Made by a program: the position numbers and the translations under genes | Notes under the pieces: generated by a model | The model's input: the letters and a program-made list of their open reading frames with translations, nothing else | Told to the model about the DNA's origin: nothing | Database searches by the model: none | NCBI RefSeq assembly: GCF_000385335.1 | Contig: NZ_ARWA01000001.1 | Span: forward strand, 1,194,001 to 1,258,000 | DNA: 64,000 nt | Direction: 5' to 3' | Source of the DNA: Methyloferula stellata AR4 | GTDB taxonomy: Bacteria > Pseudomonadota > Alphaproteobacteria > Rhizobiales > Beijerinckiaceae | Shown: piece by piece, positions 16,729 through 34,652 of the stretch | Position numbering within the stretch: position 1 is the stretch's first letter | Layout: each line of letters begins with the position of its first letter

Positions 16729-17640
16729 GTGAAAGGCAATGCCTTGCGCGTACTTGTGCTCGGTTCGGCGGCCGGAGGCGGTTTTCCCCAGTGGAATTGC
16801 CTCTGTCCGGTCTGCCAGCTGGCCTGGAACGGCGACAAGCGGGTCCGGCCAAGAAGCCAATCGAGCTTGGCTGTCAGTGCTGACGGTGAACGTTGGCTTC
16901 TGCTCAATGCTTCGCCCGACCTTCGCCAGCAAATCCTCTCGTCGCCGTTTCTGCATCCGCGCGGTGCGAGCAGGCAAACACCCATCTCGGCGGTCTATGT
17001 CACCAATGGCGACGTGGATCATCTGACCGGGTTGCTGACGCTGAGAGAGTCGCAGAGTTTTGCGCTCTTCGGCAGTAAAACCACGCTGGCGCAGACCTCG
17101 GTCGGTGTTTTCGGCGTGCTGAACAAGAACCTTGTTCATACCAACGCGGTGTCGCTCGACGAGCGCGTCGATACGGGCCTCGGCCTTTTCGTGACGCCTT
17201 TCGCGGTTCCCGGCAAGGATCCTCTCTGGATGGAGAAGGATCATGTCGAGATCGGCGGCCTGACCGAAAATACGGTCGGGCTCGAAATCAGCGACGGGCA
17301 GAAGACGTTCTTCTACATACCCGGCTGCGCGGAAGTCACGCCCGCCATCAAGGAACGCATTTCCGGCGCGGAAGTCCTGTTCTTCGACGGCACGACATTT
17401 ACCGATTCCGAAATGGTCGATCTCGGGCTGTCGCAGAAGACGGCTTGGCGCATGGGCCATGTCGCGATGAGCGGCGAGAAGGGCTCCTTGCATTCGCTGG
17501 CCGATTGCAACATCGGCCGCAAGATCTTCGTGCATATCAATAATACGAACCCTGTTCTGATCGAGGATTCGCCGGAGCGGGCAAAGGTGGTGGCGGCCGG
17601 ATGGGACGTCGCCTATGACGGAATGGAAGTCGTTCTTTAG
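16729..17640 (+). CDS. pqqB: PQQ biosynthesis protein PqqB
   Basis: A metallo-beta-lactamase-fold protein acting in PQQ synthesis as an iron-dependent hydroxylase of the diamino acid intermediate. 303 residues. Marks: RVLVLGSAAGGGFPQWNC, then CPVCQLAWNG (paired cysteines), SSLAVSADGERWLLLNASPDLRQQI, VYVTNGDVDHLTGLLTLRE (metal site) and GHVAMSGEKG. A GTG is the only start that gives the conserved beginning. Second gene of the pqq operon. Confidence 0.96.
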   Translation: MKGNALRVLVLGSAAGGGFPQWNCLCPVCQLAWNGDKRVRPRSQSSLAVSADGERWLLLNASPDLRQQILSSPFLHPRGASRQTPISAVYVTNGDVDHLTGLLTLRESQSFALFGSKTTLAQTSVGVFGVLNKNLVHTNAVSLDERVDTGLGLFVTPFAVPGKDPLWMEKDHVEIGGLTENTVGLEISDGQKTFFYIPGCAEVTPAIKERISGAEVLFFDGTTFTDSEMVDLGLSQKTAWRMGHVAMSGEKGSLHSLADCNIGRKIFVHINNTNPVLIEDSPERAKVVAAGWDVAYDGMEVVL

Positions 17641-17792
17641 GAATTCTTTCGAAAATGTAACCCGGCTTTTTTGATTCAGAACAAATTCGGCCGAGACGTT
17701 TCGAACACATTCTAACCGATCGGATTTTCCGGTCGGAAGCGCTCCCCGAAGTGATGCGCCTTAAGACAGACATTGATGAGGAGGGTGACGCT

Positions 17793-18566
17793 ATGAACGA
17801 GCCGGGCAAGTCCGATGCTCTGATGAGCCACGACGAATTGGAAGCCGTTTTGCGCCGCACCGGCGCGGAGCGCTACCATAATCTCCATCGCTTCCATAAG
17901 CGCCAATACAGTGGCCAATGCACTTACGAAGAGGTGCAGGCTTGGGCGCTCAATCGCTACTATTATCAAGCCTCGATTCCGATCAAGGACGCGGCCGTCC
18001 TGACCCGCATGAACGATGCCGACGATCGCCGCGCCTGGCGCAAGCGCATCGAGGATCATGACGGGCTCAAGGAAGGCGACGGCGGCATCGAGCGCTGGCT
18101 GAAGCTCACCGATAGTCTCGGCTTCTCGCGCGACTATGTGAAATCGACCGAGGGCATCCTGCCCGGCACGCGTTTCGCGGTCGATGCCTATATCAATTTC
18201 TGCAAGGAGCGCACCTTGCTCGAGGCGGTGGCTTCTTCTCTCACCGAACTCTTCTCGCCGACGATCATCGGCGAACGCGTCACCGGCATGCTGGCGCATT
18301 ATGATTTCGTCAGCAAAGAGACGCTCGCCTATTTCACGGCGCGTCCCGAGCAGGCGAAGCGCGACAGCGAGTTTGCTCTGGCTTACGTCAAGCAGCACGC
18401 CAAGACGCGCGAGCAGCAGGATCTCGTCGTCGCCGCGCTCGAATTCAAATGCCATGTGCTGTGGACGCAGCTCGACGCAATCTGGACCGCCTATATCGAC
18501 AAGCTGCCGCCGGCCGGCGTCTGGGTGCCCGGCACCCATGTCGCGACGCAAGGCAAGGCGGCGTGA
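17793..18566 (+). CDS. pqqC: Pyrroloquinoline-quinone synthase PqqC
   Basis: Cofactor-free oxidase catalysing ring closure and eight-electron oxidation, the last step to PQQ. 257 residues with YHNLHRFHKRQYSG, RYYYQASIPIKDAAVLTRM, WRKRIEDHDG, FAVDAYINFC and LEFKCHVLWTQLDAIWTAY. AGGAGG nine bases before the ATG at 17793 fixes the start over an in-frame ATG at 17751. A 152-base gap separates it from pqqB; it overlaps pqqD by four bases (GTGA). Confidence 0.97.
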   Translation: MNEPGKSDALMSHDELEAVLRRTGAERYHNLHRFHKRQYSGQCTYEEVQAWALNRYYYQASIPIKDAAVLTRMNDADDRRAWRKRIEDHDGLKEGDGGIERWLKLTDSLGFSRDYVKSTEGILPGTRFAVDAYINFCKERTLLEAVASSLTELFSPTIIGERVTGMLAHYDFVSKETLAYFTARPEQAKRDSEFALAYVKQHAKTREQQDLVVAALEFKCHVLWTQLDAIWTAYIDKLPPAGVWVPGTHVATQGKAA

Positions 18567-18850
18567 GCGGACCTGTCCAACTCGAGGATCAGTCGAAGCC
18601 GCATCTACCGCGCGGCGTTCGGCTGAAGCTCGATGAGACGCGCAACGAATGGATGTTGCTTGCGCCTGAGCGCGTCGTCAAAACCGATGCGATCGCCGTC
18701 GAAATCTTGAAGCGATGCGACGGCGTCGCCACATTGAGTGAGATCGTTGATAATCTCGCTGCGACTTTCAATGCGGACCGCGCGGTCATCGATAAAGATG
18801 TCCGCGCCATGCTGACGGAACTCGCAACCAAACGGATGGTGGACCTGTGA
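18563..18850 (+). CDS. pqqD: PqqD peptide chaperone
   Basis: A 95-residue RiPP recognition element that binds PqqA and presents it to PqqE. Sequence [51 protein letters not shown] is typical. The GTG start overlaps the pqqC stop as GTGA, and its own stop overlaps the pqqE GTG in the same way. It is a separate gene here, not fused to pqqC as in Methylobacterium extorquens. Confidence 0.95.
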
Positions 18851-19980
18851 ACGCTCCCATTGTTCCGCCGAAACCCGCTGTCGCCGCGCCCGTCGGCCTT
18901 CTCGCCGAGCTGACGCATCGCTGCCCGCTCGGCTGCCCCTATTGCTCGAACCCGCTCGAAATGGACGCGCGCGCCGAAGAGCTCGATACGGAAACCTGGC
19001 TCCGCGTTTTCTCGGAAGCCGCGGCGGCCGGCGTTCTTCATGCGCATCTGTCCGGCGGCGAGCCCGCCGCGCGGCATGATCTCCTCGAGATCGTCGCGCA
19101 TTGCTATAAGGTCGGGCTCTATACCAATCTCATCACCTCCGGCATCGGACTGACGCCTGAAAAAGTGAAGGCTCTCGCGGACGCGGGGCTCGATCACGTC
19201 CAGCTCTCGATCCAGGATGCCGAAGCCAAATCGGCCGATAAAATCGGCAATTATGAGGGCGGCTATGCGAAGAAGCAGATCATCGCCAAGGCTGTCACGG
19301 ACAATAATCTGCCGCTGACGGTCAATGCCGTCATCCATCGCGCCAATGTCGCGCGCGCCGGCCGCATGGTCGAACTGGCCGTCGAACTCGGCGCAAGGCG
19401 CGTGGAAATCGCTCATGCGCAATATTATGGCTGGGGCCTCGTCAATCGCGCGGCGCTGATGCCGACGCGCGCGCAGGCCGAAGCTGCAATCGCCGAGGTC
19501 GAAGCGCTGAAGCTGAAATATACGGGCACGATCGTCATCGATCATGTCATTCCGGATTACCATGCGCATCATCCCAAGGCCTGCATGGGCGGCTGGGCCA
19601 AGCGCACGATGAACGTCACGCCGTCTGGCATGGCTCTGCCCTGCCACGCGTCGGAAACGATCCCCAATCTTGAACATTGGAGCGTCCGTGATCATTCGCT
19701 GATGGACATCTGGACCTCTTCGCCGGCCTTCAACGCCTTTCGAGGCACGGATTGGATGAAGGAGCCCTGCCGGTCCTGCGAACGCAAATTGATCGATTAC
19801 GGCGGCTGCCGCTGTCAGGCGCTTGCTCTCACGGGCGATGCGACCGAGGCCGATCCGGTCTGCCATCTCTCGCCCCATCACGACAAGATCGCGGCGGTGA
19901 CAGAGATGTTCGCCGACGATGACGCGCCGATCCCGGATTATGTCTACCGGCGGATCAAGGCGACCGCGCCGGTGGAATAG
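18847..19980 (+). CDS. pqqE: PqqA peptide cyclase PqqE (radical SAM/SPASM)
   Basis: Radical SAM enzyme forming the carbon-carbon bond between Glu16 and Tyr20 of PqqA. 377 residues: the [4Fe-4S] SAM motif CPLGCPYC near residue 25, GGEPAARHD (the GGEP-type SAM site), and a C-terminal SPASM part with clustered cysteines ([39 protein letters not shown]). Last gene of the operon. PqqF/G-type proteases are not in the window. Confidence 0.97.
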
Positions 19981-30924: not shown

Positions 30925-31377
30925 TCACCCTTCCATCATGCCGCCCATCACGGCGCCTTGGACGATCTCGTCCGGGCCGCCGACGCGGCTGTCGATAATG
31001 TGTCTGATCGGCTCCCAGGTGAATGTATCGGCCCAGGCCGCGCCGAAATTGAGCGCCGCCGCCGGCGCCTTGCAGTTTTTGTCGAGCTTCACGGCGACCA
31101 CGCATTTGCCGGTGACGGACGCCGTCTGGATTTCCCAATTGATCCAATCGTTGTTGCCGGTGTCCTTGCCGACGATCACGAGCAGATGGGTGCCAGACTT
31201 GATCTTGGCCTTGAGCTCTTCTTTGAGAATGGCGCCCTGAGGACTGTGGAACGGCACTTTGAAGCGATCCGTCTCATAGGCGATCTCGAAATAGTCGCCC
31301 GTGTTCCACTCGAGCAGCATGTCCATGTATTTCTGGTCCGCCGGCTTGAAGCTGACGAAAACGCGTGCCTTTTCCAT
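30925..31377 (-). CDS. TIR-like (MTH538/ThsB-type, DUF1863) domain protein
   Basis: 150 residues. MEKARVFVSFKPADQKYMDML opens like TIR-like domains of the DUF1863 group. It continues with FHSPQGAILKEELKAKIKSGTHLLVIVGKDTGNNDWINWEIQTASVTGKCVVAVKLDK, matching the strand-helix order and the W-x-x-W-E-I segment of that group. In Thoeris defence, proteins of this group (ThsB) sense phage and make an NAD-derived signal. No ThsA-like effector lies nearby, so a defence role is inference. The start at 31377 has AAGG about 12 bases upstream. Confidence 0.7.
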   Translation of the reverse strand: MEKARVFVSFKPADQKYMDMLLEWNTGDYFEIAYETDRFKVPFHSPQGAILKEELKAKIKSGTHLLVIVGKDTGNNDWINWEIQTASVTGKCVVAVKLDKNCKAPAAALNFGAAWADTFTWEPIRHIIDSRVGGPDEIVQGAVMGGMMEG

Positions 31378-31586
31378 GGAACGAGACCTTCTTCGATGAC
31401 GTGTTAAGCGCCTGTGTCTGCGGGATCGGGGCCCGGCACAGGGCAGCATTCAATATCCGCGCCATATAGCACGTCTTGCGGCGGAGGGCATCGGGGCGGC
31501 GTGGGTCCAATTGACTGGAAGCATTCTGCCGACTGAAAAGACTTTAAATTCAATGTATTGGAACGTTTTGGGGAAGCAAGCCAGAC

Positions 31587-32436: not shown

Positions 32437-33924
32437 GTGCTTCAAAACGACAGTGTCGCAAAGCGGTTCGAAGCGCGTCTGCGAGCAAAAACGATTTCGC
32501 CTTCTCCGCATATTACAGATGCCGGGCTTCTCTTGGGGGCGGGCACGCTCCTTGTCAGGATGTCGCTTGCTGCTAATGCGGTGCCCCATCTCGCGCTTGA
32601 AGAGGATCGCGAGCGGCTTCTTGCTCTGTTGTCGATCGCGGCCGGGCGCAGCATGACGAAGAATACGCTTCGCCACATCGACGCTGCCTCTCGCGTTTGG
32701 GATAGCGGCGACAAAGCGCTTGCCAATCTACGCTTGGCATTTGCGCGGTTGCCGCGGCTTGACGGAGCCGCAGACGCATATCGCCTGTGGCTCGCTGAGA
32801 CACTTCTTGACGATGGCTTTTCACCATACAAACTCATGAAGGAACTCGGGCTCGATCCCGCCGCGCTCGATCTCCTGAAATATGATGAAAACCAGCCGCG
32901 CGTGCCAGCCGGTAATGGCCGGGAGAGCGGACGCTGGGGGCCGGGTGAAGGTGGAACCCCATCCGCCGCCAACAAGCCGGATCCTTTTCGAGTTACGATC
33001 TCAGAGGCGCGGATCACGCCGCAACAAGCGCAGCCATCAGCCGCTAGGTCCCCGATTCCTCCGCCCCCGCCCGCCGCTCCGGTGGTCGGCGGTGCAGTGG
33101 CAACCGAGCTTTTCACGGCAGGCGAAACAAGCACCTTTATCGCGGGCCTTTCGGCACTTGTGGCAGCCGTGGGCGCCGTAATCGTCGGCGGTGTCATTTT
33201 AGTCCCTTGGCAGAAAAACCCGCTGTCTGAGGGTCCGATTCCAGGCGATTCCAATCTGCATTATGCGCTCGATGATGCAACGGGTCGCTTACAACTTTAC
33301 CGGCGGACGGAAGACGGCGGGAAAGAGCAGGTCGCTATTGCCCAGCGGGGCTCCAACGGCATTTTCTTTGAGACAGAAACGGGTCTTCCGATCGCCCGGG
33401 AAGTCAAAGGCGGTCTCGCCTTCGACTCTGATTCGCTCGCCGAAACGACCGGGGATGAGGGGACCGAGGCTCAAAGTCAGCAGAAAGATGATGAACCCAA
33501 GCTTTGCCCGGATCCTAGTCCCGACGCGCCGCATGGCGCCTCGGAACGCGCGATCGCCTATCAGAAGCAAATCAGTGCCTTGAACAACCCGCAAAGGCCT
33601 TTGCCGGAAGGCATCGCCGTCAGCTTGACCAACCCAGCAACAGGAAGGCGGGTCGTCTATGACGATTGCCGGGAAAGCGATGGCACGATGATCGAAGCCA
33701 AAGGACCAGGATATGGAAGAATGCTTGGCTCTCAATATTTTCGAGATAAATTTACAGATAGATGGACACGCCAAGCGTCGCGGCAAATTGCGGCGAGTGG
33801 AGGCCGCCCCCTTGAATGGTATTTCGCGGATCGAGAAGCGTCGGAATTCGCAAGAGAACTTTTCGACGGTAATAAAAATCTGACGCGCATTAAAGTCATT
33901 TACGAACCGGCAAAAATGCTATGA
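32437..33924 (+). CDS. Polymorphic toxin with C-terminal Tox-REase-5-like nuclease domain
   Basis: 495 residues, GTG start with AAGGA seven bases upstream. Parts: a helical N-terminal region (1-150); a motif NQPRVPAGNGRESGRWGPG (152-170); a proline run (206-216); a hydrophobic segment (234-257); a linker; then the toxin domain (357-489). The last has CPDPSPDAPHGASERAIAYQ, VVYDD...DGTMIEAKG (D410, E420 and K422 as a D...ExK nuclease site) and PLEWYFADREAS, as in restriction-endonuclease-fold toxin 5. It probably cleaves DNA or RNA of rivals. There is no signal peptide or known trafficking domain. It overlaps the next gene by four bases. Confidence 0.8.
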   Translation: MLQNDSVAKRFEARLRAKTISPSPHITDAGLLLGAGTLLVRMSLAANAVPHLALEEDRERLLALLSIAAGRSMTKNTLRHIDAASRVWDSGDKALANLRLAFARLPRLDGAADAYRLWLAETLLDDGFSPYKLMKELGLDPAALDLLKYDENQPRVPAGNGRESGRWGPGEGGTPSAANKPDPFRVTISEARITPQQAQPSAARSPIPPPPPAAPVVGGAVATELFTAGETSTFIAGLSALVAAVGAVIVGGVILVPWQKNPLSEGPIPGDSNLHYALDDATGRLQLYRRTEDGGKEQVAIAQRGSNGIFFETETGLPIAREVKGGLAFDSDSLAETTGDEGTEAQSQQKDDEPKLCPDPSPDAPHGASERAIAYQKQISALNNPQRPLPEGIAVSLTNPATGRRVVYDDCRESDGTMIEAKGPGYGRMLGSQYFRDKFTDRWTRQASRQIAASGGRPLEWYFADREASEFARELFDGNKNLTRIKVIYEPAKML

Positions 33925-34652
33925 AATCTCTTATTTTTGGGCGAAACTATCATATTCGAGCCGCCTGGGGGCCACGCGTAGAAACGCCGAGCGCGATGGC
34001 CGCCAGCTTTGTGCGCTACATCGATATTTTGCGCAATCTCGATCCAGTATTTTCCCTTTGGACGACGGGAATGAAACGGCCCGTAAAATTTGAAACGGTC
34101 CGCGATCATTTTGAAGACATCGTCATGGATAGTGTGTCTATCGATGACGATGGAGATCCCGAACTGGAATATGGCTACGGACCTTTCGCTTGCACACGAG
34201 ACGTAGCAGGTCCATTGGTTTTTGGAATCAACACAAGCCTCGGCTCATGTTTGAACAATACCAATTACGTTGACCTCCACACAAATTCTGCTGAAATCCC
34301 AGATCCCCGAATAATCACCTACAAGATCTTCAAGGCGGCTTTGCTTGGGATCGTGGAAATCTGGGATCCTCTGGATTGCCGTGCGACCCCGCATGAGCTT
34401 CTCAAGCTTATCGATTCAGATGGATATTTTCGTGCGGTTTGGATGCAATATCTCAGCCCACCGCTCGCGCGGCTCATTACGCCTCCCGCGACTTCCATCA
34501 ATGAATACCTTCCCAATGGCGGGCTGTTGATGTCGGCAACAACCGAGACCTTTAAAGTCGACAATCCGTCTCACGTGGCCGTGGCATGCGACATCGCGGA
34601 CGCCACCGCGCCATTGAACGAGGGGAGTAATGCGCCTGGATACGCGGATTAA
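33921..34652 (+). CDS. Immunity protein for the adjacent toxin (Imm52-like)
   Basis: 243 residues, ATG overlapping the toxin stop (ATGA), as expected for a cognate antidote. The all-beta/helix sequence with several tryptophans and the look of YIDILRNLDPVFSLWTTG and AVWMQYLSP resembles Imm52-type immunity proteins, which accompany Tox-REase-5; this family match is from memory and moderate. The gene is lower in G+C than its neighbours. Its last codons (GYAD, stop) are formed by a palindrome arm at 34635, so the natural end may have been replaced. Confidence 0.7.
   Translation: MKSLIFGRNYHIRAAWGPRVETPSAMAASFVRYIDILRNLDPVFSLWTTGMKRPVKFETVRDHFEDIVMDSVSIDDDGDPELEYGYGPFACTRDVAGPLVFGINTSLGSCLNNTNYVDLHTNSAEIPDPRIITYKIFKAALLGIVEIWDPLDCRATPHELLKLIDSDGYFRAVWMQYLSPPLARLITPPATSINEYLPNGGLLMSATTETFKVDNPSHVAVACDIADATAPLNEGSNAPGYAD

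Follow-up and report, generated by a model that had tools for sequence, protein, structure and literature searches.

A toxin–immunity pair of Methyloferula stellata whose front module recurs among phage virion genes and shares a junction motif with portal proteins

Introduction

By what route does a bacterial toxin leave its producer when the front of the protein resembles no known delivery domain? The question is raised by a gene pair in the chromosome of Methyloferula stellata AR4 (Alphaproteobacteria; Beijerinckiaceae), within a stretch of 64,000 nucleotides of contig NZ_ARWA01000001.1 (positions 1,194,001 to 1,258,000) that we refer to, as a whole, as the window. The first gene (32437-33924, forward strand, GTG start) encodes a putative toxin of 495 amino acids and the second (33921-34652, forward strand, ATG start) a protein of 243 amino acids; the ATGA at 33921-33924 holds the stop of the one and the start of the other, a spacing of -4. 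An earlier note, made from the sequence without database searches, had read the two genes as a polymorphic toxin and its immunity partner and had suggested that the front of the toxin may be a delivery module not yet described. Here, we follow up this suggestion with profile searches, structural models and a comparison of related loci in bacterial genomes and viral contigs. We find a front module that recurs among the virion genes of viral contigs and ends in a junction motif that is also present in phage portal proteins, and we think it probable that the pair derives from a toxin system whose cargo is carried by virus particles.

Results

A predicted nuclease and its immunity protein

The product of the downstream gene matches the immunity family Imm52 (PF15579; E 4.8e-13, 49.7 bits against a cut-off of 25), and the earlier note, which had taken the four-base overlap to be that of an immunity gene, was right on this point. 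Among solved structures, the sole match of Imm52 is 4rho, an uncharacterised protein (E 0.0082). The note had also assigned the C-terminal third of the toxin to Tox-REase-5 (PF15648), an assignment that stands on its core residues and its fold but not on its Pfam score. The score remains below the curated cut-off of 25, both for residues 357-495 alone (E 0.0016, 19.4 bits) and for the whole protein (E 0.027, 15.5 bits), as do those of two other copies in the genome (L022, 19.7 bits; L023, 20.1 bits; loci are numbered with L and genomes with G), and a sequence profile of the domain found no solved relative. In an alignment of 13 domains, however, C411, G416, E420 and K422 (EAK), Q450 and W461, in the numbering of the window protein, are invariant, and D63 is nearly so. 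The published core residues of Tox-REase-5 are Y, FDG, EAK, Y, Q and W (PMC3482391); EAK, Q and W are all found in the window domain, with the ExK intact. A model of residues 347-495, with a mean predicted local distance difference test (pLDDT) score of 91.8, gave as its best solved matches in Foldseek the complexes PA3907-PA3908 (9oz0, E 1.3e-3) and TseT-TsiT (7dym, E 3.5e-3), at a probability of 1.00 and template-modelling (TM) scores of 0.54-0.66, and the row after these two complexes had a probability of 0.47.

The pairing itself is conserved. An Imm52 gene lies directly downstream in 21 of 22 REase-5 rows (the rows were not de-duplicated), the 22nd being at a contig edge, and in those 21 it starts at points that range from 137 bases inside the toxin gene to 10 bases past the toxin end. 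Judged by sequence and structural model, the locus is a polymorphic toxin–immunity pair of a known kind whose C-terminus is a predicted nuclease of the restriction-endonuclease fold, of the TseT kind, and it looks like an antibacterial DNA-cutting toxin with a protective partner.

The GAGT module, a proposed new carrier with differing C-termini

The front of the toxin has a different status. Residues 1-260 match nothing in Pfam up to E 5 and no PHROG, and the whole 495-residue protein matches nothing in NCBIfam. In a search confined to marker domains that Pfam contains, residues 1-260 gave no PAAR, VgrG, Rhs or MIX-type domain and no TPS domain, in keeping with the view of the earlier note that the front holds no trafficking domain that can be named. 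Neither of the two outcomes that the note had listed in advance as fatal to its proposal turned up: residues 1-260 match no known trafficking domain of the libraries searched, and the C-terminus does have a nuclease-fold match.

Residues 1-148, which we call the GAGT module, were found in 39 other sequences at 27-54% identity, yielding an alignment of 40 sequences. The ratio of non-synonymous to synonymous substitution rates (dN/dS) for the module is 0.22 between L022 and the same-genus copy in G001, and 0.23 between the two copies of L025. Two further pairs (window against L083 and against L022) gave 0.19 and 0.22 with saturated dS (2.8 and 1.9) and are not relied on, and two comparisons without usable dS were dropped. 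Because the module recurs at 27-54% identity and its usable ratios are this low, we regard it as real and beyond chance. By phmmer, the divergent front of L066 also matches module proteins (6.7e-8).

The model of the module (mean pLDDT 89.1) consists of a helix at residues 2-16, four strands within 20-51 and then six helices to residue 144, so the helical region (1-150) described in the earlier note is there, although the strands mean that it is not purely helical. Model confidence is low from about residue 150 on, in the junction region. Against PDB and BFVD, residues 1-180 gave no fold match at E<=0.001. As candidates for a known fold, the best rows (Z 5.8, 82 residues, root-mean-square deviation 4.3, mostly T4-lysozyme parts of fusion constructs) were too weak, and nothing was drawn from them. 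The module is a carrier new to the libraries and structures searched.

Behind the module, the NQPRVPAGNGRESGRWGPG stretch at 152-170, the proline run and the hydrophobic segment that the note had listed are all present in the translation, and the RVPAG...GxW motif that it had mentioned for other alphaproteobacterial toxin-like or phage-like proteins is indeed found in such proteins. In module proteins this junction reads Y-x-P-x-QPR, then VPAG-NGRES or a short D-x-H form, then G-R/Q-W. Further on, residues 181-356 have a comparable region, by phmmer, in four other module proteins (L022, L026, L027 and L030).

The genome of M. stellata (4.24 Mb, one contig) contains six copies of the module. 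Three of them, the window copy, L022 and L023, end in a Tox-REase-5-like domain and one ends in NucA/NucB (L025:9776-10810, 1.1e-6, above the cut-off); the C-termini of L024 and of the other L025 copy received no Pfam assignment. The two L025 copies, which lie 3 kb apart, have fronts that are 89% identical and C-termini that give no blastp hit at E<=10. Of the 45 C-terminal regions that follow the module, three are recognised by Pfam as Tox-REase-5 at 1e-3 (best 8.9e-12) and one each as CdiA-CT RNase A, NucA/NucB and DUF6572; the others match nothing. Tabulating the C-termini that follow the same front, as the earlier note had proposed, thus returned Tox-REase-5-like, NucA/NucB, CdiA-CT RNase A and other ends, which is the pattern of polymorphic toxins. 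Directly after the L024 copy (L024:3040-5013; genome positions about 1258040-1260012, about 1.5 kb past the window end) come two genes that are paralogues of each other and possibly its immunity genes.

The module lies among virion genes on viral contigs

A scan of viral contigs returned 18 loci. Most of the module is present at 15, which are spread over 14 contigs; the module proteins of three contigs are identical. Recognised virion genes are present at 14 of these 15 loci and on 13 of the 14 contigs, from adjacent to 6.5 kb off, the exception being L068. The module is located between the head protease and the capsid-position gene in L069, L074 and L075, and between tail genes in L065, L070, L076 and L077; in L064 the order is terminase, protease on the other strand, module, Imm52 and portal. 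Two Imm52 genes are found in each of L068 and L076.

Representative portals, head proteases and terminases were compared with PHROGs to check how they had been labelled; for the protease representatives the best PHROG is of unknown function, with head maturation protease second or third. A match to phrog_13692 (unknown function) was obtained for the 'capsid' family, and the capsid, 'tail tube' and 'tape measure' labels are our reading from position and sequence. One protein of the 'tailX' group is Pfam DUF2460. In named phage and plasmid collections, tblastn gave no match of the module at E<=1e-3.

On the bacterial side, five of 100 related genomes have more than the motif (G000, G001, G021, G027 and G045), and three more have partial hits only. 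Across the order, 46 of 397 genomes gave a hit, and among the matches listed outside G000 only profile positions 122-178, that is, the junction and the approach to it, are covered. The same-genus copy in G001 is interrupted.

We also scanned viral contigs for the junction alone, using a DNA pattern for QPRVPAG, and obtained at least 119 loci. Among the matches listed, the motif is in frame in 33 of 119; similarity to virion queries, with the portal query taken without its junction tail, was found at 23 of the 33 loci with the motif and at 24 of the 86 without it (Fisher 4e-5). The loci with the motif are shorter than those without, yet richer in virion genes.

Portal proteins carry the same junction and variable tails

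The junction is also found at the end of portal proteins: the L069 portal ends in FNLDQPRDENGRWTDEG and a short tail, and the L072 portal in FDPDQPRDEWGRWTSDGG and about 94 residues. With the L069 portal as query, 77 portal loci were fetched, the sample being the best 80 of 93 matches. We defined a portal as close if its score was above 550, a threshold set at the score gap (450 to 580), and counted the NPYHDERGRF form as a junction. Among 73 full-length portals, the junction is present in 42 of 55 close and 0 of 18 distant ones (Fisher 4e-9), and in 37 of 50 when distinct close portal cores are counted once; in those 42 portals it is followed by 18-277 residues. One of the six portal search peptides lies in the junction; since all 55 close portals contain another of the six, the enrichment was not created by the sampling.

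At 20 loci, some of them near-identical, a full portal is accompanied by one or more fragments of the portal C-terminal part on the same strand, mostly just downstream, and 24 of 29 such portal fragments carry the junction with another tail. A full portal together with junction-bearing fragments that end in other tails presents the anatomy of polymorphic toxins with orphan cassettes.

Several portals have known toxin domains behind them. The single frame L130:2296-4143 matches Phage_portal over the whole family model (3.6e-22) and CdiA-CT RNase A (8.8e-12), and the single frame L132:496-2286 matches Phage_portal (8.2e-23) and Colicin E5 (8.5e-10), all above the Pfam cut-offs. A partial portal is joined, again above cut-offs, to RNase A in both L228 and L205:2515-3657 and to CdiA_C (1.2e-16) in L205:3973-5529. 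A scan of 47 portal tails returned at most five Pfam matches, with Colicin E5 twice and CdiA-CT RNase A, DUF4258 and MuF once each, so that the majority of portal tails match no family. As a separate observation, a recurring cysteine-containing segment, PEGWQACHEKCLAETEGVWPPSDRPGLYRRCVRACLGPAGDDY, ends several portal tails and fragments (L125:3182-4678, L126:2911-3687, L139:136-1665, L169:5608-6132 and others).

Module and portal share some toxin families

C-termini were clustered after wrong-frame hits in the 'other' class had been filtered out, and a 52-member cluster, maybe joined by linkers, was not used. An RNase-A-type cluster contains C-termini carried by the module (L064, Pfam-confirmed), by portals (three), by an N-terminus with RPDA repeats (one) and by short N-termini or frames (three). 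The Colicin-E5-type cluster has one module member (L087, itself without a Pfam match) and two portal members, and a pair that is amidase-like by our own reading consists of one module and one portal member. On contig L064, the module protein and the frame after the portal carry related C-termini. The portal frame of this contig (L064:7516-9503) stops at a run of nine A, with the junction and the C-terminus in another frame, which is either a programmed shift or an assembly error.

Portal–junction–tail proteins also occur in a second portal subfamily, of gene-transfer-agent type (L097 portal), in L205 (four fragments in tandem), L209 and L243, and tails that we read as HNH-like are found on phrog_2662-type portals in L212 and L255. 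In L098, the space from the capsid gene to the head-tail connector is occupied by two junction-bearing proteins with other N-termini, themselves without a Pfam match, in a cluster to which Pfam assigns Phage_capsid, Phage_connect_1, Phage_tail_2, GTA-gp10, DUF2460 and phiJL001_Gp84_N. The Afipia loci L097 and L107 resemble L098 by eye.

A resident prophage with its own carriers, and a candidate role for DUF2019

Between 3858000 and 3876000, the genome of M. stellata encodes homologues of the terminase, portal, protease, capsid-position and tail genes of the toxin phages. Terminase and protease of this prophage flank two proteins whose front is a different one and whose junction is a variant (HPRW...SQGGxFAPG). 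The first has an HNH-like end and is followed by two DUF2019 genes; the second has a barnase-like piece in another frame and is followed by two Barstar genes. Neither carrier matches Pfam. Of the six rows of A9, three are themselves module sequences, which biases a comparison made with A9 (probability 99.9); the phmmer match of L066 described above is the independent link.

The combination of an HNH-like end and DUF2019 is not confined to this prophage. Of 16 rows with the HNH-like C-terminal domain (HHIVEQ...VLKP, our own reading), 15 have a DUF2019-like gene downstream, which in most of them overlaps by 4 bases, and DUF2019 looks like the immunity family of this domain. Viral contig L190 has the order terminase, portal, HNH-type toxin, DUF2019 gene, protease and capsid position, labelled by similarity to L112. 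L111 and L112 are the same place, and the two L112 genes of this type match PF09450. A gene-transfer agent was considered for the module genomes and set aside, as GTA-gp10 was not found in any of the five.

Features and surroundings of the window locus

The features of the locus are collected in Table 1. The window neighbours of the pair, read from their translations, are chromosomal housekeeping genes (e.g. uvrB downstream), and no tRNA was found in the window. Two further observations were made by eye only: a small protein at 30925-31449 (reverse strand) has the look of a TIR-type domain (MEKARVFVSFKPADQKYMDMLLEW...), and genes at 16729-19980 look like pqqB, pqqC and pqqE of pyrroloquinoline quinone synthesis, which would suit a methylotroph.

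Table 1 Features of the toxin–immunity locus (window positions) and loci at which an HNH-like domain is paired with DUF2019
Feature	Position	Strand	Basis
GAGT carrier module, residues 1-148	32437..32880	+	40-sequence alignment; model pLDDT 89; no family match
Layout of the GAGT module (residues 1-148): one helix, then four strands with the GLxLGAGT core, then a helical part bearing GDKALANxRLA and DAYRLxLAExLLDxGxSP			
Junction motif YDENQPRVPAGNGRESGRWGPG, residues 149-170	32881..32946	+	kept in module, portal tails and other toxins; low model confidence
Linker, residues 171-260: proline run and hydrophobic segment (about 232-258)	32947..33216	+	translation
Pre-toxin region, residues 261-356	33217..33504	+	phmmer
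Tox-REase-5-like nuclease domain, residues 357-495	33505..33924	+	Pfam below cut-off; 13-sequence alignment; fold match; stop 33922-33924
ATGA overlap	33921..33924	+	sequence
Imm52 immunity protein, 243 aa	33921..34652	+	Pfam PF15579 above cut-off
HNH-like/DUF2019 loci	L112:12362-14236; L190:3403-4892; L035; L040; L044; L045; L080; L095; L098		

Discussion

The evidence assembled here leads us to favour, as the probable explanation, a polymorphic toxin system that travels as virion cargo and uses at least two carriers; the window copy would be a stand-alone descendant of it in the chromosome. The arrangement of the relatives suggests that toxins of this type travel in virus particles, and virion-borne delivery, analogous to the packaging predicted for MuF toxins (PMC3482391, PMC5576092), is the mechanism with the best support. 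The module, taken as the first 180 residues, also occurs in a group of tailed phages from Beijerinckiaceae and related alphaproteobacteria, where it sits among the virion genes and ends in the junction that their portals carry too. In such a system the module, like the portal, would put its protein into the particle during assembly, most likely at the portal. The junction may serve both as a flexible or cleavable link and as a recombination joint for the swapping of C-terminal toxins. The toxin would then exit with the DNA into the next cell and harm non-immune competitors; lysogens and siblings would carry the immunity gene, and Imm52 would neutralise the nuclease in the producer. The window copy, which looks intact, could be loaded in trans by a resident prophage or kept for its immunity gene. 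Particle loading, the role of the junction, delivery, killing and loading in trans are steps that we infer, with the least support for the loading in trans of copies that stand alone in the chromosome.

Several observations weigh against a virion-cargo system. No phage gene was recognised near the window copy, and 13 virion queries matched nothing in the window. Of 13 module loci in bacterial contigs, 11 have no virion gene in the flanks examined, some of which are short, and only L090 and L093 do; stand-alone copies are therefore common. The junction is missing from 13 of the 55 close portals. Across all carriers, at most 16 of 139 scanned C-terminal regions match Pfam at 1e-3, so that 'toxin' is unproven for most tails. 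Comparison of the two carriers of the resident prophage with the GAGT module did not support homology, the junction alone having aligned (probability 0.5). The presence of the portal family, too, was discarded as evidence: it occurs in all five module genomes but also in 82 of 100 relatives, and is therefore uninformative. To these points are to be added two that bear on rival explanations, namely that the entry of the module protein into particles is a prediction and that ShlB-type transporters of the type V secretion system (T5SS) are found in five of five module genomes.

The former would agree with moron cargo that is not delivered by virions, a reading that we consider rather unlikely, in which the toxin is expressed late and acts inside the producer (lysogen addiction or phage exclusion) or is released by lysis, the junction being just a recombination joint. 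Insertion at several places, in head and tail, fits this explanation, as do the tandem immunity genes, with two Imm52 genes in L068 and L076 and the doubled Barstar and DUF2019 genes of the resident prophage. What it leaves unexplained is that 42 of the 55 close portals, which are structural proteins of the particle, themselves bear the junction and a variable tail, and that known toxin domains are present in several cases. It is unlikely, too, that the chromosomal copies are mere prophage leftovers, kept at most for immunity to phages with the same toxin. Their stand-alone position, the interruption of the same-genus copy in G001 and the lower G+C content of the C-terminus (0.53) and immunity gene (0.51) compared with the front (0.60) and the window (0.597) would suit such relics, the last contrast being also consistent with a swapped C-terminal cassette; the window frame, however, is open with its ExK residues intact, and the dN/dS of the module (0.22 for L022 against G001, 0.23 for the L025 pair) speaks against decay.

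The transporters would point instead to an effector of a cellular secretion system, with the module as a marker or adaptor domain comparable to MIX or FIX, which are domains of effectors of the type VI secretion system (T6SS). Tox-REase-5 with Imm52 is listed for toxins of the T5SS, the T6SS and the type II secretion system (PMC3482391), and the nearest structures to the nuclease are T6SS effector–immunity pairs. Delivery by a T6SS was nevertheless rejected, as TssC/VipB (PF05943), which the control search matched in E. coli, is absent from the genome of M. stellata and from all five module genomes, though 19 of 100 relatives have one. VirB4 of the type IV secretion system is likewise absent from the genome of M. 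stellata and present in one of the five module genomes. With residues 1-260 lacking any Pfam match and the module sitting inside virion clusters, we judge a secretion effector to be very unlikely.

A wider generalisation is conceivable, although we lean against it at present: in alphaproteobacterial phages and in gene-transfer-agent-type clusters, portals together with the head proteins next to them may form a general toxin-delivery platform. The junction tag F/Y-N-P-x-Q/H-P/D-R...G-R-F/W would then mark particle-borne toxins, the portal would be a polymorphic-toxin carrier with orphan cassettes and the GAGT module a second carrier of undescribed fold, and stand-alone tagged chromosomal toxins would be loaded in trans. 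The finding of a carrier of unrecognised fold and a portal with one common junction and some of the same toxin families predicts which virion proteins could deliver toxins, and directs attention to portal tails. It also provides a delivery hypothesis for the short, unannotated QPRVPAG proteins found in Hyphomicrobiales chromosomes and in clusters of gene-transfer-agent type, and makes immunity a candidate function of DUF2019. Searches of the open-access literature, subscription papers and preprints being outside their scope, listed no paper whose title or abstract reports either toxin-carrying portals or this module.

The system shares features with several known ones. CdiA and Rhs polymorphic toxins combine a constant carrier, a variable C-terminal toxin, an immunity gene and orphan C-terminal cassettes. 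CdiA_C and CdiA-CT RNase A domains are found here behind portals, whereas the carrier is a phage portal or the GAGT module and not a T5SS exoprotein or an Rhs shell. TseT is a T6SS effector, and TseT-TsiT and PA3907-PA3908 of Pseudomonas aeruginosa have the closest solved folds to the window nuclease domain; the title of 9oz0 names a T6SS effector–immunity complex, whereas the present genome has no TssC and the toxin a different front. The Bxa family of Bacteroidaceae prophages similarly comprises prophage-encoded polymorphic toxins with a common N-terminal domain and immunity genes, and differs in phylum and in its ADP-ribosyltransferase toxin (PMC11699363). For polymorphic toxins of the phage head, published descriptions name the MuF domain as the carrier (PMC3482391, PMC5576092). 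These toxins resemble the present system in having toxin domains joined to a protein that is encoded beside the portal among head and packaging genes, in their differing C-termini and in their predicted packaging inside the head. They differ in their carrier and in their hosts: MuF (PF04233) has no match in the window toxin up to E 5 and is absent from all five module genomes, the carriers here being a module without a fold match and the portal itself, and MuF toxins are reported from phages of Firmicutes (PMC5576092), whereas the present system is found in Alphaproteobacteria. MuF toxins lie in the head and packaging cluster of temperate phages; the window copy does not lie in such a cluster, whereas its relatives on viral contigs do.

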